This document shows, one piece after another, positions 10,119-60,652 of a stretch of 64,000 bases of DNA. The position numbers and the translations under genes are program-made. This DNA is from Globomyces pollinis-pini (Eukaryota; Chytridiomycota; Chytridiomycetes; Rhizophydiales; Globomycetaceae): contig MU621135.1 in the NCBI GenBank assembly GCA_025399215.1, forward strand, positions 21,592-85,591. Direction: 5' to 3'. Below the pieces are notes generated by a model. The model searched no databases and was not told the DNA's origin. It worked only from the letters and a program-made list of their open reading frames with translations. Numbering within the stretch: the first letter of the stretch is position 1; each line of letters starts with the position of its first letter.

Positions 10119-10156
10119 ACTAGCCTGAAATTTGCCATGATGGTCAAACAATCATA

Positions 10157-11859: not shown

Positions 11860-11884
11860 ATTGCAGCCCTATTTGGGCTGCAAT
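11860..11884. promoter_or_regulatory. Perfect 10-bp inverted repeat upstream of member 5
   Basis: ATTGCAGCCC (11860-11869) and GGGCTGCAAT (11875-11884) are exact reverse complements separated by five bases. It lies about 80-100 bases before the ATG of member 5, the same place as the AGCC-GGCT palindrome of member 4. It could be a binding site for a dimeric regulator (inference). The rest of 11519-11961 shows no gene. Confidence 0.55.
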
Positions 11885-11961
11885 CACGTAAACAGTAGCC
11901 AACTCAATAGAATACTTAAGCAACAGAAATCCGTTTCTCAGTTTGATAATTAATTATTAAA

Positions 11962-14653: not shown

Positions 14654-17609
14654 TTAAGCTTTAAGTTTACGAATAACTCGTTCAGTATTAGACCGTCCAT
14701 TCATATGAATAAATCCTTCATCCATCAAATCCTTCAATAACGAATTAAACTCGTTTTCACTCAACAGTTCATCCGATTGGTTATTGAACGTCCGGTACAA
14801 TTCCGTCCATCGAATAGTAGTCTTATCAAATTCATGGATAACAGCTCGAATAGCTTTACGTTTATGTTCATGTACAGTACGACCCCAAGATGAAATCCCG
14901 GTGGTAACCAAGTCAAGATCAATACGTCCTGTACGTGGATCAACAGCAGCAGCTTGAAGAGCAGCCAATACTAATCTAAACCATCAATAAATCGAAATTA
15001 CCGATTGGCTTCTTCGACATCTTGACGTTCTACCGTAGGTGATAACCGCATCTTGGCATGAGCTTCGGCCAATCGAATCATACTCTCCAACTGTCGAGTC
15101 GTAAATGTAATCACATTCGCTCCACCAACTATCCCTGATTTCCTCATGGATACATAAAAATTAACCAAACATTGTCCAGCTTCTTCGGATATCACTGGTT
15201 GTATTTTCTTTGCATAATTCAAATATTGTGTAAACTTTTCAATGGGCAAGTAATCAGCAGCAGAAATGATGGGTTGATCGGTTAGATATAATGATACCAA
15301 ATGTTGTGCTAATCTTCGATCATCCCGTTCATTTGGTTTATCCAAAATAAGATACAATAAATCAAATCGAGACATTAAAGGTGGTGGTAAATTCACATTT
15401 TCAGGTACAGATAAATTCACATCGAATTTAGAGTTGATTGGATTGGCACATGCCAAAATAGAGGTTCGAGCATTTAATGTAGTAATAATCCCAGCTTTGG
15501 CAACCGAGATTGTTTGTTGTTCCTATCCAATTACCAAATTACGGGTTACCATCACTTCATGTAATACGGATCGTGTAAAATCAGACATTTTATCAAATTC
15601 ATCAATACAACAGATACCTCCATCAGACAATACTAACGCACCACTACCAATTAAGAATATCACGGTGGATACCTTTCCAAAACAAGCTGTCTGGTATCTG
15701 GATCTCTGGTGACATAAGCAGTTAATCCAACCGCAGATGAACCTTTTCCAGATGTATAAACTCCACGTGGTGCCAATTTATGAACATACTAAATTGAAAT
15801 AAATCAAATGATGGAATTACTTGTAATAATTGAGATTTGGAAACACCAGGATCACCAACCAATAAGATATTTAAATCTCCTCTACCATCATCAACATATT
15901 GACTGTTTACCTTATTCTTGGAGTTCCAGGTTTATCTGCTGCAAATTTATGTGATCCACCAAACAATTGTAGTAAGATTCCTTTTTTCACATCTTCTAAT
16001 CCATAAATAGAAGGAGCTGTAAAAAAAAATCAATAAATAAAAAAATTGAATTACCAATGGAACGGGAGAGGAAATCATAAATGTCAGGTCTTTGACTCAA
16101 ACTTTTCAATTCATCTTCATCTTCAACAACATTAGTTTGAATCTGATCCGTTTCATCAAACCTACATCACATCAATCAAAAAAAAATCGATAAAAACAAC
16201 ATACTCGACATGATATTCATTTTGATTGACAATACTACTATCAACCGCAATTCGTTTTTTGCTTGATTTCTTGATATGTACAACATCAATATATGTTTTG
16301 AATAATGATTTGATGTTTCGTTGACGAGGATTGACTCTGACGGAAATGGCTCGGAAAATACCAGTGATTTCAACTCTATTTGATTTAATTGTAGGGAAAG
16401 GTACCGATCACCCGGTTTGGCAACATCTACCAAATCATCATAACTGCAGAGTGAAACTGTATATGGAGTTTGACCATCAGGGGTTTCATCTGAAAAATTA
16501 ACACCATCAAGAATATTGTGATATCAGAAATAAATATAAAAATGATAGGAATTGTATGATTATAACATACCAGGAGTTTCTTGTAATCTACAGATTTGTT
16601 TATCAGAGAATAGACAACGATTATGAATGAGCATCATGGTGTTTTTAGATTGACAATCATTCGAAGGACAAACAGTAGGTTCAGCAATCCGACCACGATC
16701 ATTCTCAGTCTCCACCGTAAAATCACAAGCAGAACATCTAAAAAAAGCTACAAAACTAAGTACACCATTCATCAATACCTATACAATCATGACCAGATTG
16801 GTGACATACCTTGTTTCAGATCGGGGATGATTGGAGAAGCACGAATCATCAATCCCTTGATGGTAACCAATTGATCAATATCGGAAGGATTGAGTTCTCG
16901 TAAATTAACAACGGTTGGAAGGTTGAATGGTCGAACTTTTAATGACATTCCTTCTGGTAACGCACCTTCAAACCTTTCTTGGAAAATATCAGTCAAAACA
17001 TGATCCAGTAAAGGAATGATTTCTTGTGGATATCGAATCAATTGAAAATACAATTTTTGTGATGGTTCATAACTTTTAATCTTTGAACAATCTAAATTCA
17101 AATTATAAATTTGATTTTGATGCAACTAAGACGTTAAGGTTGATATATCATACATAAGTCAATAGATTGAGATAAAAAGGAGTGTCATCGATATTCATGG
17201 ACTGATCCAGAGGATCGACATAGTTTAAGATAAAGGATCTAAACAAAGCCATCGAGTCCTGGATATTGACGGTTGTTCCCCAGATCACCGGAGGAGGGTT
17301 TGAATTATCTGGAGCAGATGATAGATCATTTCGCGTTTGAGTACCATTCACTTGAGAAGATAACTCAGAAGCCAAATAGTGTTGTAGTGCAGCAGTAGGT
17401 TGAATATCTCCTCTGATATTTCTAACATGTCTTGGTGAATTGATAGAAGCTACTGAAAGAGGCCCAGCATCACTTGTCAAGTAGTTACGGGAAGAAGGAT
17501 TCAAGGGCTGATCGGTAGCATTATTTTGAGTATTATTTGAATTCTGGTTTGAGTTAGTTGGTCCAAAGGAAGAAGCAGTTCTTTGAGTGGGTGAAGAGGA
17601 ATGCGACAT
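14654..17609 (-). CDS. MCM4: MCM4, replicative helicase subunit
   Basis: Subunit of the hexameric MCM2-7 helicase that unwinds DNA at replication forks in the nucleus (family knowledge). Twelve exons: 17154-17609, 16810-17125, 16571-16747, 16405-16489, 16205-16375, 16055-16161, 15911-16016, 15821-15881, 15673-15788, 15550-15643, 15002-15522, 14654-14975; 843 aa. MCM4 signatures: [54 protein letters not shown], a zinc finger (CSAC...C...C), [19 protein letters not shown] and [20 protein letters not shown]. The AAA+ core has Walker [12 protein letters not shown], Walker [11 protein letters not shown] and arginine finger SRFD. The N-terminus is a Ser/Asn-rich tail, as in other MCM4 proteins. The ATG at 17609 is chosen because the family tail starts there. 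Introns are 26-43 nt apart from 16490-16570 (81 nt) and the compound one at 16748-16809. Confidence 0.95.
16748..16809 (-). other. Compound intron in MCM4: two 31-nt GT...AG units back to back
   Basis: Restoring [14 protein letters not shown] requires removal of 62 bases. They divide exactly into two units of 31 bases (16779-16809 and 16748-16778 in transcript order), each beginning GTAT and ending TAG (ATTGTATAG, then TTTTGTAG), with no exon base between them. Confidence 0.7.
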
Positions 17610-17929
17610 GAAAAGAAATCTGGGACAGGAACCAGACAAAAGAATTGACACTCGGACAATGTTTGACGGAGAATTAAAGACATCAATATAAGTCTCTGTA
17701 CTGATTCTTTTTGCTCCATGGTATCTTGAATAACTCTATGTCATTTCAGTCACTGTGATGGATTTAGTATAGGAATCAATTCTCAAATCATTCATCGTAT
17801 CATTGATCGTATCATTCTCTGATATTTTTATTTCTAAAGCAACACAATTGACTATAAAAATTCTTTGCTTTGTATTCAAAAAGTAAAGAAGTGAAATCGC
17901 GACATTGTTTCTTTGTCTCCAATTCACAA
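17610..17929. promoter_or_regulatory. Bidirectional promoter region of MCM4 and STPG gene
   Basis: 320 bases between divergent starts. No gene seen. The minus-strand frames here are AT-rich open stretches without domains. Confidence 0.4.
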
Positions 17930-19173
17930 ATGTCACTTACAAAAGATACGATAGGAGATTATGCTAAATTACCAAAAGGAGGTCGTAAACATCTCAAACT
18001 GTACATGCATCCTCCTTCAATTCCAACCCGATTTCAAACAATTCATTATGATGATTCAGAAAAAAATGCATTTCATTCTACTACTCCAAGATTTATTCAA
18101 AATCATTCTGAAATTCCTGGACCTGGATATTATGCTAAATCAGCTGAAACGATAAATCATTCCCATTCTGTTAAAGGATATGGAGTTGGTTTCGCGTCTC
18201 AAGTAATATAATATCAATTTTAAAATAGAATTAGCTTCGAAGATTTGTTAAACCACCTACTGATTTAGAAACTGAAATTGTTGTTGCACCCAACAAGTAT
18301 CATCCAAAATTACCATGTTATTCAGATTCTATTCAAAATTCATTATCATGTTCATTTAGAAAACCATCGAATCCAAATCATCAAAATCGAAATATCAATA
18401 TTTACGTACGAACTAGGAAAGGGTTAAAACCTACTCCAGGTATAGTTTTTATCTAACAATTAGGACCTGGAGATTATAAAAATATAAAAGAATTTGAAAA
18501 ATCTAATGGTGCTCAATCAGTATTTAAAAGTAAAACTAGTAGAACGAAATTTGATTCTGATGGATCACATCATGCACCACCACCAGGTTTATATTTGGTT
18601 GAAGAAGCTGCAAAGGCTATTCAACCTCAAGTTTATGGAGCTATTTCTTCATTCAAAGCATCTTCTCGATCACATCATCAAAAATTGTATTCTTTATGAT
18701 ATTCATACTTTAGAATGAAAGGACCTGGACCAGGATCTTATAATACTGTTCAAGATTCAAAGAAAGTCAAATCCAATTTGTAATTGATGACTACTGAACT
18801 TTAGAAAGAAACCATTAAAGTTTGGTAGTTTAGCGGAAATACCAGATACACCAAAAGAACCATCATCCAATCAAACGGCCATTCCTGGATCTGGAGCTAC
18901 ACCGATTGCCTTCCCATCACCAGGATGTTATGTAATCCATTCAAATCCATAATAATAGAATCTTGCACGAGGATCTGATGCCATTCACAAGACTATTCCA
19001 GCTTTGAATAGTATCTTTCAAAGTAAAACAACACGATTCCAATATAATGAAACTAAAAGTGCACCAGGTAATCTTGTAATATTTTAATTCAAGGTCCTGG
19101 ACATTATCATCCTTTCACTAATGATGGATCAAGATCTTTTCATCTCAATTTGAGTCAGAATTGGTCTAATTGA
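17930..19173 (+). CDS. STPG/SHIPPO-repeat flagellar protein
   Basis: Seven exons: 17930-18202, 18235-18439, 18464-18686, 18714-18779, 18805-18931, 18959-19067, 19094-19173; 360 aa. Introns are 32, 24, 27, 25, 27 and 26 nt. The protein is a string of Pro-Gly-Pro-Gly-Tyr modules about 45-60 residues apart: EIPGPGYYAK, TPGPGDYKNI, APPPGLYLVEE, KGPGPGSYNTV, FPSPGCYN, APGPGHYHPF, each followed by a Ser/Thr-rich stretch with a basic F..K motif (for example SVFKSKTSRTKF). This is the STPG/SHIPPO pattern known from sperm and ciliary proteins that bind axonemal microtubules. The repeat family is clear; which member (STPG1/MAPO2-like) is less certain. Together with IFT139 at 26686-31266 it points to a flagellated zoospore. 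Confidence 0.8.
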
Positions 19174-19331
19174 TCATGACTTTTTTTTCCAATAAATGTT
19201 TGTATTCCATTGTAATAATTCAAAACTTCAACAGTCATCAAAGTTCAGTACTATATTAAAATCAATTGAATCTTTACACAGCATAGGTTTAATATCAAAG
19301 TTTCCATATTTTAGGTATTTCATTACAAAAA

Positions 19332-20411
19332 ATGAAGACCAAAGAAAGTGAGGTTGAAAAGATTCCCATTGAAATCTTGTATTGGATCATCAAATACTTG
19401 ACAATTCATGATTTTCTATCCTTCACACAATCTTCAAAATCCTTCAATTCACTTTGTTTTACAACCCAACACTTGAAGCAACTTTATGAATCCAAAGTAT
19501 TATACAAGAAACCAAATTTATTCAAACAATTTTTATTGAATTCAAAACATTTAAATTATTTAGAAATTTTGAATTTTGCTATTCATTACAATTATTATGA
19601 TATCGTGGAATTGTTACTGGATGTTACTAATGTAGATCCTTCAATGGATGACTCTCAATTATTCATAGATGCTATTCAATTAAATCATACCAAAATTATA
19701 AACATCTTATTAAATGATAAAAGAATTAATCCTACTGCTCAAAATCATAGAGCTTTATTCATCGCTACTACATTGGGTATGAAGGATATTATAAACATAT
19801 TGTTAAAGGATGAAAGAGTGGATCCTACTGTTCTTGATAGTCATGTATTGACTATAGCAGCTTGGAATGGTCATCAAGATATTGTAAACATGTTGTTGGA
19901 GGATGGAAGAGTCGATCCTATAGCTCGAAATAGTAATGCATTAAAATGTGCTGCTGGGAATGGTCACCAGGAGATTGTTCAAATGTTGTTGAATAGAGTA
20001 AATCATTTTGATGGTGGTAATAATGCATTTATTACTGCAGTACAATATGGACAGAAAGATATGGTAAGAATGTTATTGGATGATACACGAATTGATCCAA
20101 CTTTCCAAAACAATGAAGCTTTGATAAGGGCTGTACGATTATCGGATAGAGATATGGTTTCTATTTTATTGGCAGATAAACGAATTGATCCATCATCACG
20201 TAGCAACGAAGCGGTAAGAATAGCACAAGAACAAATTATTGGAAATCGAGAGATTTTTCAAATGTTATTAGAGGATCCAAGAGTGACTTTGATTGATAAT
20301 ACACGTATTGATAGTGAATTTATTGATATTAACTCTTTGGAGAATGAATTCATTTCAATACCATCGTTCTTGGAGCAAAGTGATTACTACCTTGACTTTT
20401 TGAATCAATAA
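19332..20411 (+). CDS. F-box-like ankyrin-repeat protein
   Basis: Single exon, 359 aa. The N-terminus (about residues 8-50: VEKIPIEILYWIIKYLTIHD, FLSFTQSSKSFNSLC) has the look of an F-box. About seven ankyrin-type repeats follow from residue 70 to 330, with a recurrent unit: D-P-T/S ... A-L-x-x-A ... G-x-x-D-I-V-N-x-L-L-x-D-x-R-V/I. Examples are MKDIINILLKDERVDPT, HQDIVNMLLEDGRVDP and QKDMVRMLLDDTRIDPT. The spacing is about 33 residues. Family knowledge: F-box proteins select substrates for SCF ubiquitin ligases and ankyrin repeats bind proteins. The specific target is unknown. Codon use is like the neighbours. Confidence 0.75.
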   Translation: MKTKESEVEKIPIEILYWIIKYLTIHDFLSFTQSSKSFNSLCFTTQHLKQLYESKVLYKKPNLFKQFLLNSKHLNYLEILNFAIHYNYYDIVELLLDVTNVDPSMDDSQLFIDAIQLNHTKIINILLNDKRINPTAQNHRALFIATTLGMKDIINILLKDERVDPTVLDSHVLTIAAWNGHQDIVNMLLEDGRVDPIARNSNALKCAAGNGHQEIVQMLLNRVNHFDGGNNAFITAVQYGQKDMVRMLLDDTRIDPTFQNNEALIRAVRLSDRDMVSILLADKRIDPSSRSNEAVRIAQEQIIGNREIFQMLLEDPRVTLIDNTRIDSEFIDINSLENEFISIPSFLEQSDYYLDFLNQ

Positions 20412-20439
20412 ACCAAATGAAAATTTTCACTTTTTTTGA

Positions 20440-21218
20440 ATGGAACTATTTGAAGATATCAATGAATTTCTAACCAAAGTAAAATGATTAAAATGATTGA
20501 AATGAATTTAGTGTGGATATCCCAAATCATTAATTGATCCAACAATCATCAAATTAGATTCAATAGATCAATCTGATATCATGAATTTTTTAATGAAATG
20601 TCAATCACATTTAATTAACAAAAGTAAATCTATAATTCATAATGAAATCAATATAAAATCAAAGTTTTTAAAAAGAAAAAGGTTAGATATAAATCAAAGT
20701 AATTCATTGGAATTCACTACTCAAAATCATTGTGCTAGAACAAATCCTGCTCCATTAAATCGTAAAATACAAATGAAAAAAAATATTATTCATAATATTT
20801 CAAATGATTTAGATCGTTCAACTTTTCAAAAATTTGATAATACTAAACAAATGGTACATGATGAAAGAATCATCAATTTAGAATCTCATTTAAATTTACC
20901 AATAGGTATCATTAAAGATTAACAATTAGCAAAACCTGTTGCTATATCAGAACGTATTAAACGTATTGAAGATCGTTTAATTGAAATTGAATCACAATTC
21001 CCTACTTTTGCCGCTTTTTATTTTGATCAAGAATCTAAAAATTCGAATACAACTGAATCTCACTTTTTTGAATCCAAAATTCAAAATCCTCATTCTCGTG
21101 TTGATAGTATTCAAGTAATAGGATTGTTGTTTGATAGTAGTTGACTAAATCTCGTGATATTGAATCTAGAATTGATGAATTTAAAAGTTTGTTGGAAAAG
21201 AGTGTTCCTCTAGGATGA
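20440..21218 (+). CDS. MBIP-like protein (possible ATAC-complex component)
   Basis: Four exons: 20440-20478, 20512-20905, 20930-21114, 21141-21218; introns 33, 24 and 26 nt; 231 aa. It starts MELFEDINEFLTKCGYPKS. The C-terminal half contains RIINLESHLNLPIAKPVAIS, then ERIKRIEDRLIEIESQFPTF, and ends in a second short coiled coil, RDIESRIDEFKSLL. The pattern of NLE.HL, a kinked linker, then an RIK.IEDR..E.E helix resembles the conserved C-terminal part of MAP3K12-binding inhibitory protein 1 (MBIP), a scaffold of the ATAC histone acetyltransferase. The middle part is basic and low in complexity. The family call is made from memory of the motif only; it could be another short coiled-coil protein. 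Confidence 0.45.
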
Positions 21219-21353
21219 TGAACGCGTTCACTCCAATAATTTAATTTATAGTATTTCCTTTAAAATATTTTTATTTAAAATATGCATCATTGTTATAGTA
21301 TTTAATGTTGTAATAGTATTCTCGTGTTGATAGTTTTTTTGTTTGATTTTTTT

Positions 21354-22757
21354 ATGCTTTTCTCTTGGTTGAATGTGAATGAAATCAAAGCAACGAATAT
21401 GCAACAGTTACGATCAGATCCAACACTAAGTGATTGTACTATAAAGTATCATGATAAAATCCATCATTTATCCAAATTCTTTTTATCATGGAGATCAAGA
21501 TATTTTTATTCAAGTTTTAATACATTTCAAACTGATGAAATTGATTTATCAAATACAGATTTTAATTCAAATGTATTAGATGCTATCATTGAATTTATTC
21601 ATTTTACTTTTGATTTGGATTGTATTTTTATTTGGTTATTGAAGGGTCTTCCAATCAATCAATTATATGAAGCTTCTAAATATTTTCAAATTGATGAATT
21701 AGAAACTTTGATTTTAAAGGCATTTGATTTATTTCCTACTTCAACTGTTTTTACGAATTCAATCAAAAATCATCCAAAAAACATCCTGAACAATCTATTG
21801 AATGGTATCAACAATGATTCTAATAATTCCATGAATGGTATCAACAATGATTCTAATAATTCCATGAATGGTATTAAAGATAATTCCATGAATATCAACA
21901 GTAATTACATGAATGGTATCCAGAGTAATTATGACATCAAGAACAATTCCATGAATGGTATCAAGAGTAGGAATATTGACATTGATACTATTGTAAATAT
22001 TTTCAAATCTTTAGATGAATTAATATTCCAACCCGACATTCAAATTAAATTTCAATGGATTTTTGTAATGATTCAAATTCAAGAAATGAAATCATTACAA
22101 AGCATCTTGAATCAATTTCCACTATCTAATTTTGAAATATTATTTCAATTTTTATTCATTCAATTGAATGAACAAGAACGATTTCAAATATTTTTAAATT
22201 CATTTCAACAAAAATCTAAACAAGATCAAATGATATTAAGATCAAGATACCTTGAAGAATTTAATTTTTCAATGATTGATCCCAATATTTCATTTCAATT
22301 ATGTCAAAGTATTCCAGATTGTAAACAAGTTGCTATTTCAATGTATCAAAAACAAAGATTATATGATTCTAGAATGTATATAGGATGTAAAACGTTTTGT
22401 TTTAAATCCAGCAAGACTGAATGTGAATTTGAATTTATGATATCCGATTATAAATTTCAAATCAAATTGAAGGATGAATTTGATTGTTTAGGATATAAAT
22501 CTGTATTTTTGTATACCGATTGGAAATTGATACGACAACAACAAGAATTTTTAGAATTTGGATTTTATATTTATGAATTTAATGAAATGATTGGTAGACA
22601 AGAATTTAATGAAGAAAGTTTAGAATATTTAGAATTTTTTAGTCAAGAACGAATGAAAGAGGATGGATATGGTAATGTGATGGTATCTTTACAAGATTTC
22701 CAAGAAGGACAAGAGTATATATTAGCTATTCGAATGCATCTCCTTCCATATGATTAA
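21354..22757 (+). CDS. BTB/POZ-domain protein with Asn-rich repeats
   Basis: Single exon as read, about 467 aa from the ATG at 21354; an in-frame ATG at 21399 (MQQLRSDPTLSDC) is an alternative start nearer the domain. BTB features: SDPTLSDCTIKYHDKIHHLS, KFFLSWRSRYFYSSF, a helix with VLDAIIEFIHFTF, and INQLYEASKYFQIDELETLI, as in BTB folds that dimerise and often bind cullin 3. A low-complexity stretch at about residues 150-205 contains repeats of NGINNDSNNSM. The C-terminal half (about residues 330-467: RMYIGCKTFCFKSSKTECEF onward) looks like a beta-rich domain I do not recognise, possibly MATH/TRAF-like or PHR-like. Function unknown. Confidence 0.65.
   Translation: MLFSWLNVNEIKATNMQQLRSDPTLSDCTIKYHDKIHHLSKFFLSWRSRYFYSSFNTFQTDEIDLSNTDFNSNVLDAIIEFIHFTFDLDCIFIWLLKGLPINQLYEASKYFQIDELETLILKAFDLFPTSTVFTNSIKNHPKNILNNLLNGINNDSNNSMNGINNDSNNSMNGIKDNSMNINSNYMNGIQSNYDIKNNSMNGIKSRNIDIDTIVNIFKSLDELIFQPDIQIKFQWIFVMIQIQEMKSLQSILNQFPLSNFEILFQFLFIQLNEQERFQIFLNSFQQKSKQDQMILRSRYLEEFNFSMIDPNISFQLCQSIPDCKQVAISMYQKQRLYDSRMYIGCKTFCFKSSKTECEFEFMISDYKFQIKLKDEFDCLGYKSVFLYTDWKLIRQQQEFLEFGFYIYEFNEMIGRQEFNEESLEYLEFFSQERMKEDGYGNVMVSLQDFQEGQEYILAIRMHLLPYD
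21804..21869 (+). repeat. Two perfect 33-bp coding repeats
   Basis: The unit 21804-21836 is repeated exactly at 21837-21869 (encoding GINNDSNNSMN), followed by shortened copies to about 21960 with AATTCCATGAATGGTAT as the common core. A recent slippage or duplication in the BTB gene. Confidence 0.85.
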
Positions 22758-22821
22758 TATGATTTTATAATATCTTTCTATGATTAGTTTTAGTAATAAA
22801 GTAAATTTTTTATTTTTTTAA

Positions 22822-25800
22822 ATGACAGATCCTCGTCTTTTGATTGAAGATTATACCAATTCAGGAATCAATAAAACCAAATTAAAATTCAAATTAAAAA
22901 GAATTTATTTAGAGGTAAAATTATTAAATTAACAAAAAAAAAGTATGATCAACAATTTATTGGAATTCCTTACCCTTCTACTATTCTAGTAAAATATGAA
23001 CTAAATTATAATGATATCGATTTAAAATCTTACTTTCAATCTTTTGGTCATATTCAATTCTTACAAACTTTAATCTTTAATAATTTTAAATACGCTTCAA
23101 TCACTTTTACTAAAAAAAAATCAAATCATTCAAGAAGAGCTATATTAAAAGCTATAAATCAAAAATACCCTTTCATTATATCTGTAAAATTCGATTATCA
23201 AGGTATTCCTATATTTGTATTCTTAAAAAAAAAAAGGTTTAAAATATCAATCTTTAAAAGAAAAATTTGAAGCTTTAAATCCTATTCCTATATACCCTAA
23301 AACTAATTCAAATCTGGATTCAATGACTCTTCAAAATAAAAACTATACAGATAAAAGAAGTATCAATACAAAAATGATGGATCGTGTATCAACTAACTCA
23401 AACATGAATAATCGTGTATCAAATGACTCAAAAATGAATGATTCGAAAATTCATACCGAGAAAAGAATCACAGATATCAAAACACATACCAATAAAAGAA
23501 TCAATGATCATATGTCTAGTAACGACAGAAGCACTGATCGTGTATCAACTAACGAAACAAGCACTGATCGTGTCCCAATTAACGATACAAGAATCACAGA
23601 TGGTCGACGTACGTCAATGAACGATACAAGCACAGATCGTCGAACTAGCTTTGTTGGTAGATCTTTTGATAAAGAACGGCAATTTGACAATAGACGCCCA
23701 GATAGAAACGATAGATCATACACACGCGATACCAGAATACCAGATAGATCAGATAGACAAAGTTTTGATCGAGATCGATTACCAATCGACCGATTTGATA
23801 GAAATACAAGACCATTCGATAGAGATTATAGGGATTCAAGACCAATCATGAGAGATGGTAGAATGGATAGAAATGATGTTCGAGATTTTAGATATCGTTC
23901 AAATCAAATTCCAGAGATGATTGATCAAAGACATCGTCATTCTTATCATGAAAAAACTCCAGATTTTCTTTATGGTCGTGAGGATCGTAGATCGAATGAT
24001 GTATTTAGAAGAGAAAGAGACGATCGATTTTCAAGACCAGATAACAGTAGATCTCATTCAAATTTGAATCGACTTGATTCCAATAACGATTATCGTAATT
24101 CTAGTTTTCGTGGAAGAGAATCGTTTCGAAATGGTTATGGTGATGCTAGAAAACGTCAACCTTCCCGATCCCGTTCTCGATCAGTCAGTTCTTTTTCTTC
24201 TTCTACTAGTAGTTCTTCTAGATCACGCTCTGTTACATCTTCTAATTCATTCACCTCCAGTTCTCGTTCTGTAACCAGATCACGATCACCACCTCGAAAG
24301 TTTACTCAACAATCATCACGATCACCACCTCGAAAGTATACTCAACAATCATCACGATCACCACCTCGAAAGACTTTCAAACAATCACCTACACGAAAAA
24401 GATATATCCCTGATGCCCGAATGTCTAATGGATACCCGAATCGCTTTGAAGATCCACATAGGAAACGATACCCACCTTCATATGATTATCGAAGAGAAAA
24501 CACAAATAATCATGTACGCTCCGATTTGCCTTCACAGTTGGACAACCGTCGAAGATACTCAAAAGATATTTTACCAAAAGACAAGAATGAGAAAGAAGTC
24601 AAAGTGGTGGATGAGAAAACACAATTGATTGAAGGAGCTTTGGAATTGGTTATCAAGAATCTATCCCCTATTCTACTGCAAGATTTTACACGTCAGTATT
24701 TACATGCCATTGCAAAATCAGTTTGTGATACAAAAGCAACTCAACCATCTCTTAAACTCTCTTCCATTGTAGCAACCGTTAAATTACCACATATACCTAA
24801 TACACCCAATGACACCATCCCAAACGGAGATCTTAAGCGGGATGATGTTGAACATTTGGATGATCCATATCTGAACACTCAAAACAAGATTAAATCATTA
24901 CTACCTTCATTTAAGAAAATCAAACGATCTAGATTTCATTCCGATAGTAATGTATCTGATGTCGAATCGGAAAAGAAGTATTCTAGGGTTATATCATCGG
25001 ATTCAGATGAAGAATCACAAATTTCTAAACAAACTGATCATTCATTACCTTCTACTCCTATCCGAAATGATATGGTGAATCACGTATCACCTGAAAAGTG
25101 TTCACCAACTAAAAGCACTGTTGAGATTGTAAAGATGGAAATTGATAGAGAAAATGTCGAATCTAACCAAAGTGGGAATACTAATGAACGATCTGTATCT
25201 GTTATTGCAGATACCAGTGGTAGTGAAAGTGATCGACAAAGTGATCGACATGATGTTGAAGATGTCTCACTTTCACCTATTGTTCAACAAGAACCAGAGA
25301 TTTTTGAATTACCACCTGAAAATAGTATTCCAAGTTTGAAAACCAAAACCAAACTCAAGAAAAAGGCATTAAAGAAAGGCAAAGATAAGAAAACCAAACG
25401 TAAAAGAGGATTAAAACCTTCAAATTTATCTACATCTATTATTCCCAGCAATGTTGTATCTTGGACCAAACCTCAACGAGAACCTTTTAAATTTTTAGAT
25501 CATGTATTGACACCTACATTTACACAAGATGAAGATTCCGATACATCAATAGATTTCCAATTTGCAAATCAATATTTCCCACCATGTGATGAAGAAGATC
25601 TTGAATATTTGAAGCTAGCATGTCAACGAGAACAAGAAAGAAGAAGATTATCTCGATCCAAACGAACACGATTTTGTTTAGAATTATCACAAGAATCTTT
25701 TTTACAACTTTATCCGATTGATAAAATCAATCATGTAGATGATGATCCTATACCCGAATCACCCCTAAAGAATATTTTTGTAGATTTAAAAATCGAATCT

Positions 25801-26532
25801 GCTCGAACCATCAAATATCAAGATTATTTAAAGATCAAACCAAGTAAATATAAAAAATTATTGGATACCAAGAAAGAACAAGATATCAATAATTCCAAAT
25901 TATTTAATCATACCAAAGATAGTTCCAGAGCCGAACGAGTCAATCATCGATATGTATCATCAGCACTTGGATCTCAACGTAATGTATTATCTAGTGAACA
26001 TGCTGAAGCCATTAAATTCCAACAATTAAAAAGTCGAAAAAAACAATTAAGATTTGCACAAAGTCATATCCATGATTGGGGATTATTTGCAACTGAAAAA
26101 ATTGAAGCTCAAGAAATTGTAATTGAATATATTGGAGAAATTATAAGACAAAAAGTTGCTGATCATCGTGAAAAAATGTATGAAGCTAGTGGTATTGGAA
26201 GTAGTTATTTATTCCGAATTGATGAAGATATGATTATTGATGCCACCAAGCAAGGAAATATTGCTAGATTGATTAATCATTGTTGTGATGTAACTTTTAG
26301 TTTTTTAATTTTTTTTTTTTTTGTATAGCCCAATTGTAGTGCAAAAGTGATCAATATAGAAGGAACGAAACGAATTGTCATTTATGCTAATAGAGATATT
26401 TTGGAAGGTGAAGAAATCACTTATGATTATAAATTTCCAATTGAAGAAGATAAAATTCCATGTTTATGTGGATCCATTGTAACTTTTATCATTATTTTAA
26501 AATTATAGAATTGTCGTGGTTCCTTGAATTGA
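22822..26532 (+). CDS. SET1: SET1, histone H3K4 methyltransferase of COMPASS
   Basis: Five exons: 22822-22914, 22944-23202, 23237-26289, 26329-26478, 26509-26532; introns 29, 34, 39 and 30 nt; 1192 aa. It transfers methyl groups from S-adenosylmethionine to histone H3 Lys4 (family knowledge). The N-terminus holds an RRM-like region (residues about 30-120: [29 protein letters not shown]). A long Arg/Asp/Ser-rich disordered region with RS dipeptides follows. An N-SET-like part lies at about 850-930 ([15 protein letters not shown] onward). The SET domain closes the protein: [48 protein letters not shown] (joined across the 39-nt intron), EEITYDYKF, and post-SET CLCG...NCRGSLN. The post-SET ends three residues after CRG, as in Set1/MLL proteins. 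The 36-bp RSPPRK repeats are listed separately. Confidence 0.93.
24283..24372 (+). repeat. 36-bp coding repeat, two and a half copies, in SET1
   Basis: CGATCACCACCTCGAAAG plus TTTACTCAACAATCATCA (24283-24318) recurs at 24319-24354 with one change and as a half copy at 24355-24372. It encodes RSPPRK(F/Y)TQQSS in the RS-rich region. Confidence 0.85.
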
Positions 26533-26685
26533 TACCTGTTTTTTATTTTTTACTCTTTCAACCAAGATAAAAAGAACTATGAATTTGATACAAACTCAAA
26601 AAAAAAAAATCCTTAATTGCTAATATGTTAAAATTAATATATAAATATACTTGATAATTCCATCTTGTTTATTATTTTGAAAAGA

Positions 26686-29600
26686 TCAAGGAAATCTAAT
26701 ACTTGCTCTTGATTTATCCAATATTTCTGATTTAATTTTAGGATAATCAGGAACATGATTTAAAACCAAATGACAAATATCAATAGCATCAGTAAATCTT
26801 TTTGCTTTTAAATAATTAAAAGCTAATTTATAACCAATTGAAGGATTTTGTTGTCTATAAAGATCCCAACATTTTAAATAATAATCAGCAGCATCTTTAT
26901 AAGATTGTTCTTTTTCCATAATAAAACCTAAATATTCCCATGCTTTTGAACATGATAAATTGACTGTTGTTACTTTACGAAGTAATTCTGTTGCAAGATC
27001 ATATTTACCACCCTATTTGTTAACTTGTTTGGGGTTTTACTTGAATGTAGATATCAGCTAGTAATAACCAACATTTTTCTATATCATCACCAAATTCTCT
27101 TGTCCATTCCATTTTACTAACTCTCTTTAATTGATTTCTAGCCTAAATTTTTTTATAAATTAAAATGATGTTTTACTCTTGGAGTTTGTTTTAGTAACAT
27201 GAATGCAACTGATGTTCCCTATTATAATAAAAATTTGATTTTTGTTGATTGAATTACATAAATGGCGGGTATATAATCCCTTTCAGTATTGAGAATTTCC
27301 ATTTGAATTGTTATTGCCTTTTCAATTTCAGTAGTTTGTTTTGTAGATAATAATGCATGACATTCTAATATTTGAGTTTTAAGTGATTTTGGATTTTGTG
27401 GTAATTCCTATCATAAACAATATGAATGTTTTTAATTACTTTAATTAATTTATCTGCTGTTAATATTCCCATTAGATCAGTATCTGCATTTAAATCGGCA
27501 GTTGATTGACTGGTTTCAATAGCACCTTCTAATGCTTCTCCTCCTAATGTTTCTTCACCTGGATTCAAGAAAATTTCAATGAGATGATATAAAGCTCGTA
27601 CTCCCCATGTACCATCCCTTCTACAAATCGCAAATTCTTTTAAAGATTCATTCAAATTATTTATAAATCTAAAATATTAATTGAATTGTTCTATTTTCAC
27701 CTTAAATATAATCCTTTACAATAATGATATCCTGCACTTAATTTTGTATGTAAAGTTTTTTTATCTGATATTTCAAAGAATTTTGGAATATCTTTCAAAG
27801 TATTCATACGACGACATAAATCAATATAATTTGCTAATACTTCATAATTTGAAGGATATTGATCCAATATTTGTCGATAATGAAATAATGCTAATTGAAA
27901 TGATGATTTTTCACATAATACATCTGCTAATATTAAAGATGCTTCAGTTGATTCTGGATGAAGTTGTACTAGATTTGTTAATTGACTTTGTGCAGCAGGT
28001 AAATTGTTTTGTTTAATTTGTAATTTTCCAAGTGCTACCAAACTCTTAAACTTATTAAACTATGTACTTTTGTTTTTACCTTTATATGATTGGAATCATA
28101 TTGTGATGCTTCATTGTAATAAGCTGATGCTCTATCATAATCTTTTGAATTGTTTTCAGCTACTAATGCCATTTGATAACAAACATCAGCTATTTCACTT
28201 CGAATTTTTTGAGCTTCTGGACCAGATTCCTTCATCAATAATCTATAATGAACTTGGATAAATTAAATACCTTGATAGAATTTCTTTTGATTGCATAAAT
28301 GCTGTACTGGATTCATCAGTTAACCCCAAATGTACTGAATTCATACCCTTGATGAAGAATAATTTGGATTCTAATTCACTAGCAGTTTGACCTTTATTGT
28401 TAAAATTCATTCATTTTGAAATGATACCTTTTACATCTTCCAAAGCATCATCAACCACATCATTAGAATCTTCATACTTTTTCATTTTTTGAAGTAAATA
28501 AGCGAGTTCATATTGAAGATTTCGTTTTTCTGATGTGTTTGCTGAAATACCAGTTTTGTAATATGCAATTGCCTACATGATCAACTTCATTTGATGTTTA
28601 CTTTGGAATATTCATGCATCATAGTATATGTCTTGCCAATTTTACTAACAAAAACTGTATATGTTGGATAGGCATTATAAGCAGATTGATATACTTTAAT
28701 TGCTTCCTCTGGCTATTGATTGTCAATATATGTCAAAAAATACCTCAGTTATCTTGATGTAAGCATCTCCTAGTAAGATACAACTTTCCACCGTTGGACG
28801 ACGTTCTACTACTTCTCTAAAGCACTCTGCAAACCCCTTCCTGTCTTTCTTATGATTCAAGTAAATATCTGCCATTAAACTTCGAGCTTCCAGATAATTC
28901 CTAAAAAGTTGAGTCATTTCATCAATTACATTTCATCAGGTTTAATGGAACCCAAAATATCCAAGGCACCTTGAATATCATTACGTTTAAGTGATTCTTT
29001 TCCTTTTGTAATGATAAAGATATTCTCATTTGGAGTTCCTTTAAATAATCTTAAAGCTTCTTCCATAATTTTCTCAATATCCATCTAAAATCGTTAGATT
29101 TCATTTAAAAACTTGTACATTTAAACCTGCTTCAGCTTCCATACGAAACAAATACATTTGTCCTACTTGAGCAACTGTTGGAGATTTGTTCCATTCTTTA
29201 TGGAAATCAATCGCTAAATAGATTTAAAAAATTAAAACATACCTTTAATTGCTTCTTTAACGTTTGGTAAATTAAAAGATGAATTTAAAACTGTCAAGGC
29301 ATTATCATATTCTTTTAATCCAATAAAACATCTTGTTTTTAACAGGAAGAAATTGCATTCATGTCTAATATGAAAATCAAAACTAAGTGCCATTTCAAGT
29401 GCTGATAAACCTCCTTTAAAATTTTGATTTTCACAATTAATTTCAGCCAATAGTATAAATGCCTAAACATTAAAAAATTGATGATGAAATTACTTTGAAA
29501 TTTGACTTGTTCTTTGCAATACATTCTTCCAATTGTTTTTCAGCTAAAATTGGATTTCCAAGTGTCAAGTTTGTTTTAGCAGAGTAATAGAGAGCTTCTG

Positions 29601-31266
29601 TAGAGCCAGGTACAATTTTCAATAGTAACTGGAGTAAATCTCGAACAAGTTGTTGTAATTCATTATGGTCAACTATAATTTTTAATAATGACAATTGTTT
29701 ACCATTCAATTCAACGTTGATGAATCCAATGTGATCCATATAGTCCCGAACAATTGAAAGTAGTGTTTCCGGATTACAAATATGATAGAAGGTAGGAGAT
29801 ATTGAGATATCTTTTGTATTTTTTAACTGTAATTGAGCACATTCTTTTAAATATAATAGCCATTGATTAGTGTTTGATTTTCGTAAAGCAAGTGCCGAAT
29901 TTAAATACGATATGGAAACAGATTCACCAAAATTCCGTTGGATTTCATTGTACATTTCCAATTGCTCACTTGCCATTTGTAACTGTGATGAAAAGATCAA
30001 CCATCGAACAGTTCCTTACATTAGAATAGTTAAATACCTTCCAAGGCATCCAAATTTTGCGGATCTAAACTGGAAGCATTCTGATACATTGCTTTAGAGT
30101 TATCCAGATCGCCTAGTTTTAGAATAATTATGTGCATACCTTTCAAGAAATAGATATATCCTAATTCAGTCAAATAGTTGGCATTATTTGGTTTCATCTT
30201 GATGGCTTTGTTCATTATAAGTTGGCATTGACTTAAAATCATGTCATTTCTGTTACAGAGTCGACCAAAGGTTTGAGTTATCTCATATAGCAACTCGGTA
30301 TTTCCTGGTTCCAACCTATCAATCGCCTATTTGAACATCAAAATGATGTAAGGATTCACCTTAAATAGCGTTTCTAAATGATTTGAAGCTGCAGAATATG
30401 ATCCTTCCCAACAAATCTCATGCCAAACCAGCATCTTTAATCCATCCAAATTATCCGGACTCATAGCGATTAACGAATGACAAGAATCCAACAACTCATT
30501 CCATAATCCGTTTTCTAATTGTGTGTACATTTTTTCAACATATGCTGGAATAAATGTAGGGTAGTATGCGATAATTCGATTGCATACATCCAATGACGCT
30601 GTATACTTACGTTGACGTTTCAAGATCAACATTTTACCAAACATTCCCTAAAACGTTAATCCTCTTTAGTTTTACTTCAATATCTCGCATAGATTTTTCT
30701 AGCGCTTTTTCAAACCATGTTGTTTTATCATATCCATCCCCTAACAATTCTATCCAACCAAGTCCAGACAATGCAGAAATATTATTGGGATTTTTATTCA
30801 ATGCTTGTTTGAAGAATTTTATTGCTTCTGGTTGGTTTCCAACATGCCAACAAAACACTCCTGCAATAGTGAATGCTTTATCAGATGGATTCGCGTTAGT
30901 CGATGCAATTGTATATTTTGCTTGAATAGCTTGAATAGCCTCGTGGTCTTTGTGGATTAACTCCAGCTTTAATCTTACCTATGAATTTACAATTTTGATG
31001 AGCAAATAACATGGCTAAATGCCATATGTGAACAAAATCCCTTTTATCCTCTAAAACTGATAATTCTTGGATTGCTAATGTTGGATTTCCTGTATGCACT
31101 AATGCTACTGCCTTCCATAGTGTTAGAATTGGTTCTCCCAACAATTTTTTCAATTTTAACTCACAAAAGGATAGTACATGATGGTACCATTTTTTGGAAA
31201 GGTAGTAGCTGATCTGATCTATGTTAAAGTTCACTGGTTGTTTACATAAGCTTGATTTTCATCCAT
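26686..31266 (-). CDS. IFT139: IFT139 / TTC21, intraflagellar transport complex A subunit
   Basis: TPR superhelix of the IFT-A complex that drives retrograde transport in flagella (family knowledge). It starts MDENQAY at 31266, and after a 32-nt intron (31214-31245) continues [20 protein letters not shown], matching the TTC21 N-terminus. Further landmarks: [67 protein letters not shown], and the C-terminal signature [51 protein letters not shown]. About 20 short introns are visible. Three resolved exactly are 31214-31245 (32 nt), 30948-30978 (31 nt) and 30015-30037 (23 nt). The total fits about 1,320 aa, close to animal TTC21B. Not every exon border was worked out. Only 64 bases separate its start from the stop of the upstream dehydrogenase. 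Confidence 0.9.
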
Positions 31267-31330
31267 AGGTTAAAACGCGTCTGTAAATAAACAAAGAAAA
31301 ATTAGATTTAAATGATTTGACTTAGGTTTA

Positions 31331-32389
31331 TTAAATTTCCAACACAAAACGATACTTAACATTATTTTTCCTTACTTGCTCGATAGCTTCATTGCATTTA
31401 GATAGTGGGGTTTTTTCAATCCAAGGTAACACTTTGTGTTTGGCAGCATATTCCAACATACTTTCAATTTCATCTGGTGAACCGATTAGAGAACCAACTA
31501 ATGAAGTTTGAGCAAATATTAAAGATCCAAGACTGAGTGTGATTGGTTCTTCTGGAACACCAACAACACAGAGTTTACCACCAACATCCAATAAAGAGAA
31601 ATAACCTTCCCAATTGAGGCCTGGTGCATTTGCTGTGCAGATAATTACGTCTAAAGAGCGAGCGGCTTTCTTCATTGCTTGTGGGTCGGAAGAAACCAGA
31701 ACTTTACTAGCACCCAAGCTATTTAAATCTGCTACTTTCTTTGCACTACTGGTGATAGCAGTGACATCAACAGCTCCAAGAGCCTTAGCAAATTGAAGGG
31801 CGAGATGGCCTAGACCACCAATACCAATAACACCAACACGACAACCGGGTGTCATGTGTCTTTTCAAAGGTGCAAACACAGTAATTCCAGCACAGAGTAA
31901 AGGTGCAGCTTCAGCAGAAGGTAAACCATCAGGGATTTTGAAGGTGAATTCATCAGGAACAATAACAGCTTCTGCGTATCCTCCATAGGCAACACGACCA
32001 TCAGGGTGAGTAGCATTATAAGTAAATGTTCCCTTTTGACACAGGTTTTCACCACCCACTTTGCATTGTTTACACTGATGGCAAGAATTAGCTTGAGCAC
32101 CAACGCCCACTCGATCACCCACTTTGAATCTTGTCACATCCGACCCAATTTCCTCAACAACGCCCACAATTTCATGACCAGGAACAACGGGATACTATGA
32201 TAAGGCGATCAAAATTACCTTGGTAGGACCCCATCCAGAGTCAAGGGTATGTATATCAGAGTGACAAATACCACAATGTGAGATCTTGATTAAGACATCT
32301 TTTGGACCTGGAGGTTTTGCTTCATATTTGAATGGAGCTAGTGGAACCCCTTTTCCTGCACAAGCGTAAGCTGAAATTGTTTTTGACAT
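31331..32389 (-). CDS. Zinc alcohol dehydrogenase, NADP-dependent cinnamyl/ADH6 type
   Basis: Two exons, 32219-32389 and 31331-32194, with a 24-nt intron (32195-32218); 344 aa. Medium-chain dehydrogenase of the cinnamyl-alcohol/ADH6-7 group, reducing aldehydes to alcohols in the cytosol (family knowledge). Catalytic zinc ligands lie in HCGICHSDIH and PGHEIVG. The intron falls between them and its removal restores the standard segment WGPTKYPVVPGHE. The structural zinc site is CHQCKQCKVGGENLC. The Rossmann motif is GVIGIGGLGHLALQFAKALG, and the following STSAKK-like ITSSAKKVADL fits NADP(H) rather than NAD. Length is normal for the family. A TATA-like TATAAAA on the minus strand (32422-32428) lies 33-39 bases before the ATG. 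Confidence 0.93.
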
Positions 32390-40640: not shown

Positions 40641-43600
40641 ATGGATGATTCCAGCTTGAAATCTCTTGCCATTGTATCCAAAGTTGTTGGTGTTACACCA
40701 ATAGTGTTAAGTCCACCATTCAACAAAAAGTTGAAATTATATTCAACAGTAGTAGAATCAAAAGTGGATGCTATAACAGTCAAAGCAATCCCCACTGAAT
40801 CTGATGCGTTTTGTCAAGTTCAAAAAACAGGTAAAGATGGATCTGTATCGTTGAAAATTGGACCAAACGAAGTAGAAGTCAAAGTAGATGCTCCTGATGG
40901 CTCACATTCTATTTATGTCATTCAAGTTTATAGAACTTCCGGTAAATTCATAGAACTAACCTGTTAAGATACTGACTTTGCATTAAGTGATATCAAGTTG
41001 TCCAAAGATCAAATGTTGATACCAAAATTCTCAAAATTAGAGACTGAATACTTGATTACCGTTCCTTCAGAAGTCCTGGATATATCCATTGATGTCATTC
41101 CTCTAAATCCTAAAGCAACGGTAGCACTTATTCAACCAGAATCAACCACAAAAGAAGTCAAACTCAACACCGGAGATACCGTATTAGAATACCGAGTATT
41201 GGCTGAAAATAAACTGAATGAGGGGCAATTATTAATTACTGCTAGAAAGGGTATGAATTGATTCATTAAAACCAGAGAAATCACTCTATCGACCAAATCC
41301 TATGAAACTGATTAATTCCTTGGCATGCTCCTTTTGTAAAAATTTACTGTTTGCACCTAGAAAGTCCTTATTTGGTTGCGAGCATTCCTTCTGCTTTTCC
41401 TGTTTGTCAGTTGCACATGAAATTAAATCCAACGCTGGAGTTGAAAATTCGATTTCCTGGCTATGTCCCATTTGTATTAACCAACCAGCGACTATCAATC
41501 CACTTAAGCAATCAGATGTAGAAAAAGAAAAGATATTAAATGAGATTGAAACTCAATGTCCATTTGCAAGGTTTGGATGTAAAGAAACAAAAAAGTTCAT
41601 TGAAATGAATGCCCACATACAGATATGCTCGTTTTCTATTTCAACTTGTGTAGAATGTAACAAATTTTCTATTATGGGACAATTGACTGAAAACAAACAT
41701 AATGATGCATGTACATATAACTGCACCGATTGTGCTAAAAAAGTGCCAACAACTATCAAGCAATATCATTCAAACTTTTGCAATCTGAAAAAGGAAACTT
41801 TGTCAATTACTAATTTATCTTCACCATCAAAATGGGAGAGTTCAATGGTTGATCTCAAATTATACGGAAATCTAAGTTTGGATAAAGCAGTTTCGGAGAT
41901 TAGTTCACTAACAGAAAACTATATGCAGCAATATAGTAGTGGTTGGGAACAAGTGATAGAATCTGATGGATTGAGTAAAGTCTGTATCAAATTAGATACT
42001 CTCCAAACAGCATCACAAATTATGGCTACAATGATATCAATCAATACTTCTTCAAATTTATCACGGAATGCAGCCTTAGATTGTCAGTTGCATATTAAAT
42101 TAGGAGACATTGCACAACTCATTACTGATTCAAAGTTTTGGTTCCCTCCCATTGAGCAAAAGAATTCTAAATCAAACGATAATGATCAAGCAGCAGATAG
42201 TTTCATGGCAGATGAAGTGACAGGTTTATTATTACAGCTTGGCATACCACCTTCTGCAACTTATGCCACACAAATCAAAGCAATGGAAGCCGAATATCAT
42301 CGGTTTAAAAATCAAGGTTCAGTCAATGAAGTAAAATTGTTGTCTTTTTTACAATAGGCAGCTGAGGTGCAGAATTTGATAACATGGAAAATGAAACAGG
42401 AGAAATCTAACGGAGTAGAAGGAAATGATACAGATTCGACACAATCAGGAAACGCTGATCTTTTTAATGTGACAAAAAAATACTTTGATGCAGTTACTAT
42501 TGACCCTAATAACCTGGAAGCAAAGTAATTTAACACAACTAACTGTAGTCTTAAATATACGAAACAATTGCTGATTAGCAATGATTCAAAACGAGCAAAC
42601 ATTTTTGCCAGAAATGCACAGAATATCCAACCATGTAACCTGGATGCACAACTATTTGTTGGAATATCATTATTGCATCCAAGGGCAACTGAACAATTGG
42701 ATGTAGTTTTACTGGAAGAATCAATGACATACTTGGAGCAATACTACAACCAAATCATGGGTGTATTCAATTCCAACACTCCTATTAACACAAAGTTATC
42801 CATTTTGAGGTATCAAAAAAATTTGTTGATTGTTGATCCTATACTGATTTTACTATTTCTATCTCTAGCTAAAGGATATCGTCAACAATTTAAATTTCAA
42901 AATGCCATTAATTGTCTATTGGATTTAATTCAAATCTTGACTGCAACTTTCCAAAAGTATCCAAGAAAGAGCGAAGGATTTTATTTTGTTTGTCAAAACA
43001 TATGTGTTGCACAGAGCTGTATCTTAGATATTTCCACAATTGATTCAGGTATCTGTAAAGAATTACACATAAACATCAAAAATACGTTGTTGTCTATGAT
43101 GAAGAAATTTATGATGAATTGCCAAGGTACCAAGGATGAAAAGGTGTTGGAGATTGAATTAGGAATTGTAAAGAACATGTTAAAGTGCGATCCCACATCC
43201 AGTAAATTCCTTTCAGCATTAGGATACAACTACCTGGAACATTTTGACCTGATTCAATTGAATAATCAGAGTGAACCGCTATTAAATCTTGCTGAAAGCT
43301 CTTTTATGGCTTCCATTGAGTCAGAAAATATATCGGAAGGCGGTGTACCATCTATAAAATTGACAAGCCAGAAATGGTGGGATGATTTCCAAAAATCATT
43401 GACAGCTGAAAAAAATATACTCAAGAATAATATGGCGAAATCAGAAAAAGCTGGTGGTAAAAAAGACGCTTTACCAAGTAAAGCTAATAAATCAGCACCT
43501 CCTCCCAAAGCTGAATCAAATATAAAAGACAATACCAAAAAAGCAATGACAGTTACAAAACCTGTAGCCGCGATAAAAAAACCAGCAACAAACGCAAAAC

Positions 43601-58893: not shown

Positions 58894-60652
58894 TTATAGA
58901 ATGCGAGTAATAACTTTTTCCACTCTTGAAAACTGTAATGCTTCTTTCTTACCTTTTGGTACATCAATCGATGACATGACAAAAAAGGTGCAAACAAATA
59001 AGAATAACACAAATAGAAATCCCCATCTCATCTCTCCAGTCAAAGTTGTCACAGTAGCAACCATAAGTGGCCCAAACCATGCACTTCCTTTGTCTGTAAT
59101 TTCTATACAGATTAATTCGATTGTCATTTTACCATATAATCCAAAGAATTCCGCTTCTCTACCTGCAGGTACTAACTCACTAAATAATACACGACTAGAC
59201 GACTGAGTAGCCCCGATGATCAAACCAATTAGTGCTCCCATAATTGGTAATTCATACTTGTTTTGAAGTCCAAATGAATTCTCGGGAGTCAAGAAACCTA
59301 AGAGTCCCCATAAAGGTGGTAAACAGAATAATAGACAATGAGTCTTCAATACTTGCTGAGTGGTAAGGTGAAAAGTACTTTTGATTTTAACCCAAAGTAA
59401 AGTCCCAAGACCTGCAAAGATCGGAACGATTATGGCACAAGTTATCAAGATATCGTTTCCAGCACCTAGCTCTGACTGTGCAAACAAAATAGCCGAAGCT
59501 CCGACAGTGGAGAATGCATCTGCATAAAAAAACCAGAAAATTAAAAATTTGAATAATTCTGGTTGTTTTCTAGCATTTGAAAGGGTATGATAAACTAGAA
59601 ATTAATAAAGATTTTAAAGATTACGATTTTTTAGGGAAAATAGCACGACATTTACATTTTCAGGAAGTGGAGGACCAGGTCGTGTTTTTAGGTGGGTATT
59701 CGTATATCCTAATACAACTACACCTTGCCAAACACACACCAAAGCAATACCAATTTGCATTGGATAATTTTCAGGAAGTCCCCATTGAGTACCAGATCCC
59801 ATAACGGCTACTAAAGTAACCACAATAAACAGTTGCACAACAGCAGAACAGTAGGCAAGAAAAAATCCTGTAGCAGATATTTTGTTGCTAATGGCATCTG
59901 AAACTAGATACTTTGACTCTTTTGATAATTCTGGGTTAGCATGTGCCTCCAAGACCTCAGGAGAATATCTAGTTAGTAGAGGTAACTGAACAAATCAGAA
60001 CTATAAAACTCTTACCCAAGCATAACAAAACACAAAAGAAGCACCATAGAAGGTATTACTGATGATATAAATCAAAAATGCAATCCAATAGAGAGCTAGA
60101 TGTGAAAGATATTTCATTACATTCATTGACAACAAAAATCATTCCAAATCCAACAATAGAACTTGTCAATGAGAAGAACACCAAAAATTCTTTTCGATGT
60201 GATCCAAAATCAGCCAATGATCCCAATGTAGTGAATAAAAATAACTGTAGTATAACTGATATTGTGGTCGCGACTATCATTTAATTTATAGATGAATACA
60301 TAATACTAAAGATGCTGTATCGATATAGATCCCCATGATAGATACATCACATTTGTAAGCTCCATCAACGTTACAAGGTTTTGAGTGATCACTACGTTCC
60401 ACACCAACATGAGCAGCAAGTGATTGTAAAATAATTGGATAAAAAACTCCTACTGCCACATATCTATAACATCAATTACTAGATCTATATATACGTGTAA
60501 GCTTCAGCCTAAATCAAATTAAATTTTCGAGTTTTTTTTACCGCGATTCCAAAGGAATACCAACCATTCAATTCTGCAGGTGTTACAGGTGATTGATCCA
60601 TTTGATACGATGTTGATTCTGTAATTGTATCGATACTCTCTTTCTCTTGCAT
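58894..60652 (-). CDS. ATG22: Atg22-type vacuolar MFS transporter
   Basis: Seven exons: 60542-60652, 60495-60508 (only 14 nt), 60300-60463, 60121-60273, 60016-60095, 59625-59985, 58894-59594; introns 33, 31, 26, 25, 30 and 30 nt; 527 aa. In yeast Atg22 exports amino acids from the vacuole after autophagic breakdown (established knowledge). The family start is TPAELNGWYSFGIAAEAYTY, then VAVGVFYPIILQSLAAH, LFLFTTLGSLADFGSHRKEF, WLPLLTRYSPEV, ARKQPELFKFLIFWFFYADA, FSTVGASAILFAQSEL, LPIMGALIGLIIGATQSSSR, FSELVPAGREAEFFGLYG, DKGSAWFGPL. About twelve membrane segments are present. The frame is restored exactly by all six introns, which include the micro-exon. This confirms the splicing pattern of the window well. 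Confidence 0.93.

Follow-up and report, generated by a model that had tools for sequence, protein, structure and literature searches.

Background

Ultra-short spliceosomal introns have been described as the main intron class in ciliates, nucleomorphs and mikrocytids (PMC5014332, PMC9505925, PMC10245619). In this work we analyzed a stretch of 64,000 nucleotides (nt), hereafter the window, from the chytrid fungus Globomyces pollinis-pini (assembly GCA_025399215.1, contig MU621135.1, positions 21,592 to 85,591 of the forward strand), in which a preliminary description had listed nine introns of 23-26 nt in unrelated genes. The segments are very probably GU-AG, U2-type spliceosomal introns that have shrunk near to a mechanical minimum in an intron-rich chytrid; the predicted main class is narrow, 23-36 nt with a mode of 29, which approaches the lower size limit known for splicing.

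Among the ciliates, a group remote from fungi, Paramecium and Nyctotherus are described as having ultra-short introns exclusively (PMC5014332), whereas in Globomyces longer introns coexist with the short ones, given that 7 of the 48 introns checked in three genes measure 38-81 nt. Stentor coeruleus resembles Globomyces in its GU-AG ends, its weak branch consensus and its canonical U2 branch-binding sequence; in contrast, its introns are shorter (15-16 nt), with the branch A at position 10 of 15, and its listed splicing factors lack Slu7, Prp18 and Cdc40, while Globomyces has Prp18 (PMC9505925). A narrow length class is common to Globomyces, the mikrocytids (16-17 nt) and the chlorarachniophyte nucleomorphs (18-21 nt), and for the mikrocytids deletion down to a functional floor has been proposed as the cause. 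These are, however, reduced intracellular genomes, whereas Globomyces has an 18.5-Mb fungal genome, and intron sequences are strongly conserved in mikrocytids but variable in Globomyces (PMC10245619).

The microsporidia, which are relatives of fungi, have short introns but very few or none (PMC10245619, PMC8476143), in contrast with a density of 4.3 introns per kb of coding sequence in the three Globomyces genes. In the intron-rich fungus Cryptococcus neoformans, introns with a mean of 63 bp are termed "relatively short" in a study of 644 fungal genomes (Lim et al. 2021, PMC8476143), against a median of 29 nt in Globomyces, which agrees with the preliminary statement that fungal introns are typically longer. 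Among the papers listed by our literature search, whose scope left out most subscription papers and the Globomyces genome paper (Amses et al. 2022), none describes ultra-short introns in chytrids, Globomyces included, or as the prevailing class of a fungus rich in introns.

Introns of three conserved genes

The genes encoding the clathrin heavy chain, MCM4 and IFT139 (TTC21B-like) were used to define introns from protein conservation. The features are the following.

46793..52395, minus strand: clathrin heavy chain gene, 16 checked introns of 24-60 nt; deposited protein P0001, similarity to PDB 6sct
52301-52354, 52033-52092, 51731-51763, 51544-51568, 51235-51261, 51005-51036, 50775-50803, 50658-50681, minus strand: clathrin introns, first part
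50216-50240, 50118-50143, 49742-49772, 49310-49339, 48876-48901, 48573-48601, 48168-48196, 48039-48067, minus strand: clathrin introns, second part
14654..17609, minus strand: MCM4 gene, 11 introns of 26-81 nt (7 of 11 at most 36 nt); spliced translation equal to deposited P0121
17126-17153, 16748-16809, 16490-16570, 16376-16404, 16162-16204, 16017-16054, minus strand: MCM4 introns, first part
15882-15910, 15789-15820, 15644-15672, 15523-15549, 14976-15001, minus strand: MCM4 introns, remaining part
26686..31266, minus strand: IFT139 gene, 21 introns of 23-39 nt; spliced translation equal to deposited P0241
31214-31245, 30948-30978, 30648-30675, 30327-30359, 30113-30139, 30015-30037, 29673-29702, minus strand: IFT139 introns, first part
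29463-29493, 29214-29242, 29085-29118, 28901-28929, 28713-28743, 28573-28601, 28392-28427, minus strand: IFT139 introns, second part
28243-28270, 28045-28079, 27669-27700, 27408-27439, 27219-27257, 27143-27176, 27013-27040, minus strand: IFT139 introns, third part

Removal of these 48 introns (clathrin 16, MCM4 11, IFT139 21), every one of them with GT-AG ends, brings back conserved protein sequence and reproduces the deposited Globomyces proteins: the spliced products are identical at 843/843 residues for MCM4 and at 1309/1309 for IFT139, and from residue 2 on, over 1555 residues, for clathrin, whose identity begins only there because another intron, upstream of these, interrupts the start codon. 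The introns are thus already implicit in the public annotation, although the evidence behind that annotation is not visible. Their lengths range from 23 to 81 nt with a median of 29.5, and 41 of the 48 are at most 36 nt long.

The same segments were approached with a spliced alignment that has no splice-site rule, in which a dynamic program aligns the DNA to proteins of other genera and is free to jump over 6-160 bases at any point for a fixed penalty. Four homologues per gene were taken out of the 120 (clathrin), 120 (MCM4) and 29 (IFT139) listed; they belong to four genera for clathrin, four for MCM4 and three for IFT139, given that two of the four IFT139 proteins are from Boothiomyces. After Globomyces itself, the clathrin heavy chain matches listed next are Boothiomyces, Kappamyces and Polyrhizophydium. 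The gaps agreed by at least three of the four homologues measure 60, 33, 25, 27, 32, 29, 24, 25, 26, 31, 30, 26, 29, 29, 29 and 26 nt in clathrin, and 28, 62, 81, 29, 43, 38, 29, 32, 29, 27 and 26 nt in MCM4. In the three genes together, two or more homologues agree on 51 gaps, and for 40 of these a GT-AG placement exists within 4 nt, against 18 of 51 for the runner-up pair, TA-GG, and 2.5% of length-matched random intervals; where a single homologue backs the gap, only 3 of 38 are GT-AG. IFT139, which is the least conserved of the three genes, accounts for all 11 agreed gaps that lack GT-AG; five of them, the 23-nt one included, have the length of a deposited intron shifted by 5-8 nt, and the other six match none. 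In addition, when the MCM4 protein deposited for another isolate, Globomyces sp. JEL0801, is aligned to the DNA analyzed here, 8 of the 11 introns are recovered at the same length (81, 29, 43, 29, 32, 29, 27 and 26 nt), while the remaining three differ.

One further intron was left unremoved in the deposited annotation:

47317..47342, minus strand: additional clathrin heavy chain intron, 26 nt, indicated by three of four homologues

In P0001 this segment is read through, giving VLVSILTR after LYK, and splicing it out restores the conserved C-terminal part; hence the deposited C-terminus (window 46793-48038, minus strand) is wrong because the 26-nt intron remains in it.

Short introns in a wider genome sample

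The assembly comprises 18.55 Mb in 459 contigs, and the term "genome-wide" refers here to a sample of 264 kb, that is 1.4% of it, formed by the 64-kb window and 200 kb on three other contigs (C1:1-80000, C2:1-80000 and C3:1-40000). On these 264 kb we trained a simple gene finder that uses no homologues and a flat intron length of 12-80 nt. The ceiling of 80 nt was chosen because with introns of up to 200 nt short exons were merged into false long introns, as in a 146-nt clathrin gap that the rule-free alignment resolves into introns of 29 and 24 nt.

With GT-AG ends the gene finder returned 251 introns, 212 of them of 23-35 nt, three of 15-22 nt and two of 12-13 nt; together with the 41 of 48 checked introns that do not exceed 36 nt, this makes introns below about 40 nt the main class under that ceiling. 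With the same training, ten decoy dinucleotide pairs gave between 11 and 37 introns of 23-35 nt, with a mean of 22 (GC-AG 12, AT-AC 22, GA-AC 13, TG-GA 23, CT-AC 11, GG-AG 20, GT-AC 27, GA-AG 24, TT-AG 33 and GT-TG 37), from which the 212 may include roughly one false intron in ten. The AT-AC and GC-AG values lie within the range of the other pairs and were not taken as additional intron types. The 212 short introns are divided between the window (66) and the other 200 kb (146), and 52 of the 71 predicted genes carry at least one. Within this sample, the recurrence that had been proposed is upheld by the three other contigs, and also by one short intron in each of the genes for SF1 and Prp18, which lie on two further contigs; extrapolated to the whole genome, the count would be on the order of 15,000 such introns.

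Below 23 nt no intron is credible, since the three GT-AG introns of 15-22 nt (plus the two of 12-13 nt) are no commoner than those of the other pairs, which gave 5-48. A search for a 16-nt GTATGT...TAG pattern gave 136 matches against 264 for the reversed control, hence no excess, and a search for the pattern GTATGT..CTAAC..TAG yielded zero matches. The shortest credible intron seen is thus the 23-nt one of IFT139. It belongs to the nine introns listed at the outset, all of which are present in the window at the coordinates given for them, according to the sequence, the gene finder or the deposited proteins:

30015..30037, minus strand: IFT139 intron, 23 nt; deposited protein reproduced; branch CTAAT, 16 nt before the A and 6 after
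32195..32218, minus strand: zinc alcohol dehydrogenase intron, 24 nt; gene finder, spliced protein gap-free there against PDB 6kj5
18440..18463, plus strand: intron of a SHIPPO-repeat (STPG-like) gene, 24 nt; gene finder, Pfam SHIPPO-rpt for the gene
18780..18804, plus strand: other intron of the SHIPPO-repeat (STPG-like) gene, 25 nt; gene finder
20906..20929, plus strand: intron of a putative "MBIP-like" gene, 24 nt; gene finder
42525..42548, plus strand: intron of a putative "TPR" gene, 24 nt; gene finder
41251..41275, plus strand: other intron of the putative "TPR" gene, 25 nt; gene finder
60096..60120, minus strand: candidate intron of a putative "Atg22" gene, 25 nt; sequence, judged by eye
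14976..15001, minus strand: MCM4 intron, 26 nt; rule-free alignment, deposited protein reproduced

The removal of the Atg22 candidate gives a frame that is plausible by eye, but the gene finder missed it and modelled a 91-nt gap instead. Of the gene names proposed, the STPG repeat agrees with Pfam, whereas the putative "TPR" gene has a Cadherin-like domain match, and a TPR match only under the curated cut-off.

An annotation or assembly artefact, in which frameshift errors or chance GT-AG pairs simulate introns, could draw on the fact that part of the set was obtained ab initio, with its fraction of possible false introns, and on the TT-AG decoy, whose 48 segments of 15-22 nt reveal that the method can yield false peaks. 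Nonetheless, several genera give the same gap lengths in an alignment that ignores splice sites, the decoys and the random intervals speak against chance pairs, the identity with the deposited proteins speaks against frameshifts and contradicts an artefact for the 48 checked introns, and the JEL0801 protein implies most of the MCM4 introns at the same lengths. We consider this explanation almost inconceivable, in agreement with the preliminary view that the introns are not annotation artefacts.

Architecture of the introns

Across the 246 trained introns of 20-40 nt, a GTAATT-like donor follows AG; position +3 is A in 94%, +4 is A in 54% and T in 34%, and +5 is G in only 21%, while at the acceptor a T precedes the final AG in 78%. 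In the set of 48 checked introns, 6 of the 41 short and 3 of the 7 long members have +5G; the three long cases all belong to MCM4, where introns of 43, 62 and 81 nt have GTATGT donors, and are too few to conclude.

A motif search yielded a YTRAY branch site, which is complementary to the U2 sequence GUAGUA. Its A lies at most 11 nt from the intron end in 170 of 224 gene-finder introns, and in those 170 the distance from the donor has a minimum of 10 nt and 5th, 50th and 95th percentiles of 16, 19 and 23 nt; thus, for the most part, the donor lies 16-23 nt before the branch A and the intron ends 6-11 nt after it. In the 42 checked short introns, a set that is independent of the gene finder, 33 contain YTRAY, where 14.3 would be expected (500 shuffles, maximum 23); in 27 it lies at most 11 nt from the end, where 6.6 would be expected (maximum 14), and the other 15 do not have it there. 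The smallest common distances, 16 nt before the A and 6 after it, add up with the A itself to 23 nt, which matches the shortest credible intron.

Between the branch and the AG there is little space for a polypyrimidine tract, and for this reason the intron would be recognised as a single unit, in which U1 would read mainly donor positions -2 to +4 and U2 would pair with YTRAY. The lower edge of the length distribution would then be geometric, set by about 16 nt before the branch A and about 6 nt after it.

The size of the segments also resembles that of some elements that are bypassed in translation or excised from DNA during development, so that they could in principle be skipped without a spliceosome. 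Against this, all 48 checked introns have GT-AG ends, the branch motif is complementary to U2, and the lengths form a continuum that reaches 81 nt, the ends being the same throughout; this alternative is highly improbable.

Splicing machinery

The preliminary description had proposed an altered splicing machinery or a strong selection on intron length, and had suggested a search for changes in U2 and in branch-point proteins. The U2 small nuclear RNA (snRNA) was found (Rfam match of 135 bits, with GAUCAAGUGUAGUAUCUGUUC intact) and its branch-recognition sequence is canonical, and the genes for SF1 and Prp18 are present in the assembly, each split by a short intron (28 and 29 nt, respectively, as read from the sequence). 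For Slu7 no candidate was obtained in the assembly with a profile or the human protein as query, and no U6 snRNA with a covariance model or three consensus patterns (2-3 mismatches allowed); neither search had a positive control, and therefore these non-detections are not evidence of absence. The U6 result would be explained by an intron within the gene, by divergence of the box or by a gap in the assembly.

Short introns with a weak +5G could have been permitted by the loss or alteration of a late factor (e.g. Slu7) or of the U6 donor-pairing box. Slu7 would be here the most telling point, because it is among the factors listed as not found in Stentor, which has introns of 15-16 nt and is listed as lacking Prp18 too (PMC9505925). 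The tool that gave no Slu7 candidate did find SF1 and Prp18; the failure of all U6 searches and the scarcity of G at donor +5 point in the same direction. Conversely, Prp18 is present here, U2 is canonical, and the genes of this fungus are cut into short exons, which bears on the uncontrolled Slu7 and U6 searches. We regard such a change as unlikely, and the altered machinery that had been proposed is not demonstrated.

Constraint on intron length

The Chytridiomycota ancestor has been reconstructed at 5.3 introns per kb (PMC8476143). The density in the three genes is near this value, which fits a shortening without much loss, unlike the case of the microsporidia; the gene finder gives a lower density, 1.9 introns per kb over all predicted genes. 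Old introns may thus have been kept and shortened by deletion down to the floor. For the 54 gaps between predicted genes the median length is close to 1.1 kb, a value inflated by missed genes, which weakly suggests that introns are squeezed more than the rest of the genome.

The predicted distribution, with its narrow peak and hard lower edge, supports a constraint on length; the data fit selection for short introns and a deletion bias that a mechanical floor brings to a halt alike.

In Paramecium, stop-free introns of length 3n are reported to be depleted, a mark of quality control. The stop-free count was confined to the 48 checked introns, since the gene finder cannot see such introns and its set is unusable for this purpose.

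Some observations weigh against the interpretation as near-minimal spliceosomal introns shortened in place. It is based on DNA and protein sequence; nine of the 42 checked short introns have no YTRAY; the gene-finder set carries its tenth of possibly false introns; the non-detection of Slu7 and U6 leaves some room for an altered machinery; density is the only sign that old introns were shortened; and the 3n stop-free depletion is not evident in Globomyces (2 of 13 introns of length 3n are stop-free, and 9 of the 35 with another length), although the numbers are too small to decide.

Other features of the sample

Outside these genes, window 4998-14496 (plus strand) contains six to seven related genes in a row, most of them intronless, whose protein products look secreted; several of the proteins carry long repeat tails rich in Lys/Asn/Ala/Gly, and the two that were tested had no Pfam match. 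A tyrosinase-domain gene (Pfam 8.2e-37) with three predicted introns of 28-31 nt lies at window 2367-3921 (minus strand). In contig C2, at about 59.6-67.2 kb (L014-L015), three intronless genes begin with MKF(S/A)NILVIIST and have low-complexity bodies rich in Asn/Ala or His/Asn/Gly. DNA of relatives was sought in viral contigs, with no match.

Conclusions

The ultra-short-intron systems treated in the cited papers are ciliates or reduced intracellular genomes, and a flagellated, intron-rich fungus would add to them. As a practical warning, the deposited Globomyces clathrin ends wrongly through a single unremoved 26-nt intron. It is rather doubtful that this fungus independently reached near-minimal introns genome-wide together with a remodelled spliceosome (Slu7 loss and/or a changed U6 donor-pairing box); if this were true, the 23-nt floor would be the sum of the two smallest distances that such a spliceosome accepts around the branch point. 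A canonical U2 combined with introns at the floor in a fungus would bring the question of the minimum intron size near to the yeast spliceosome models.

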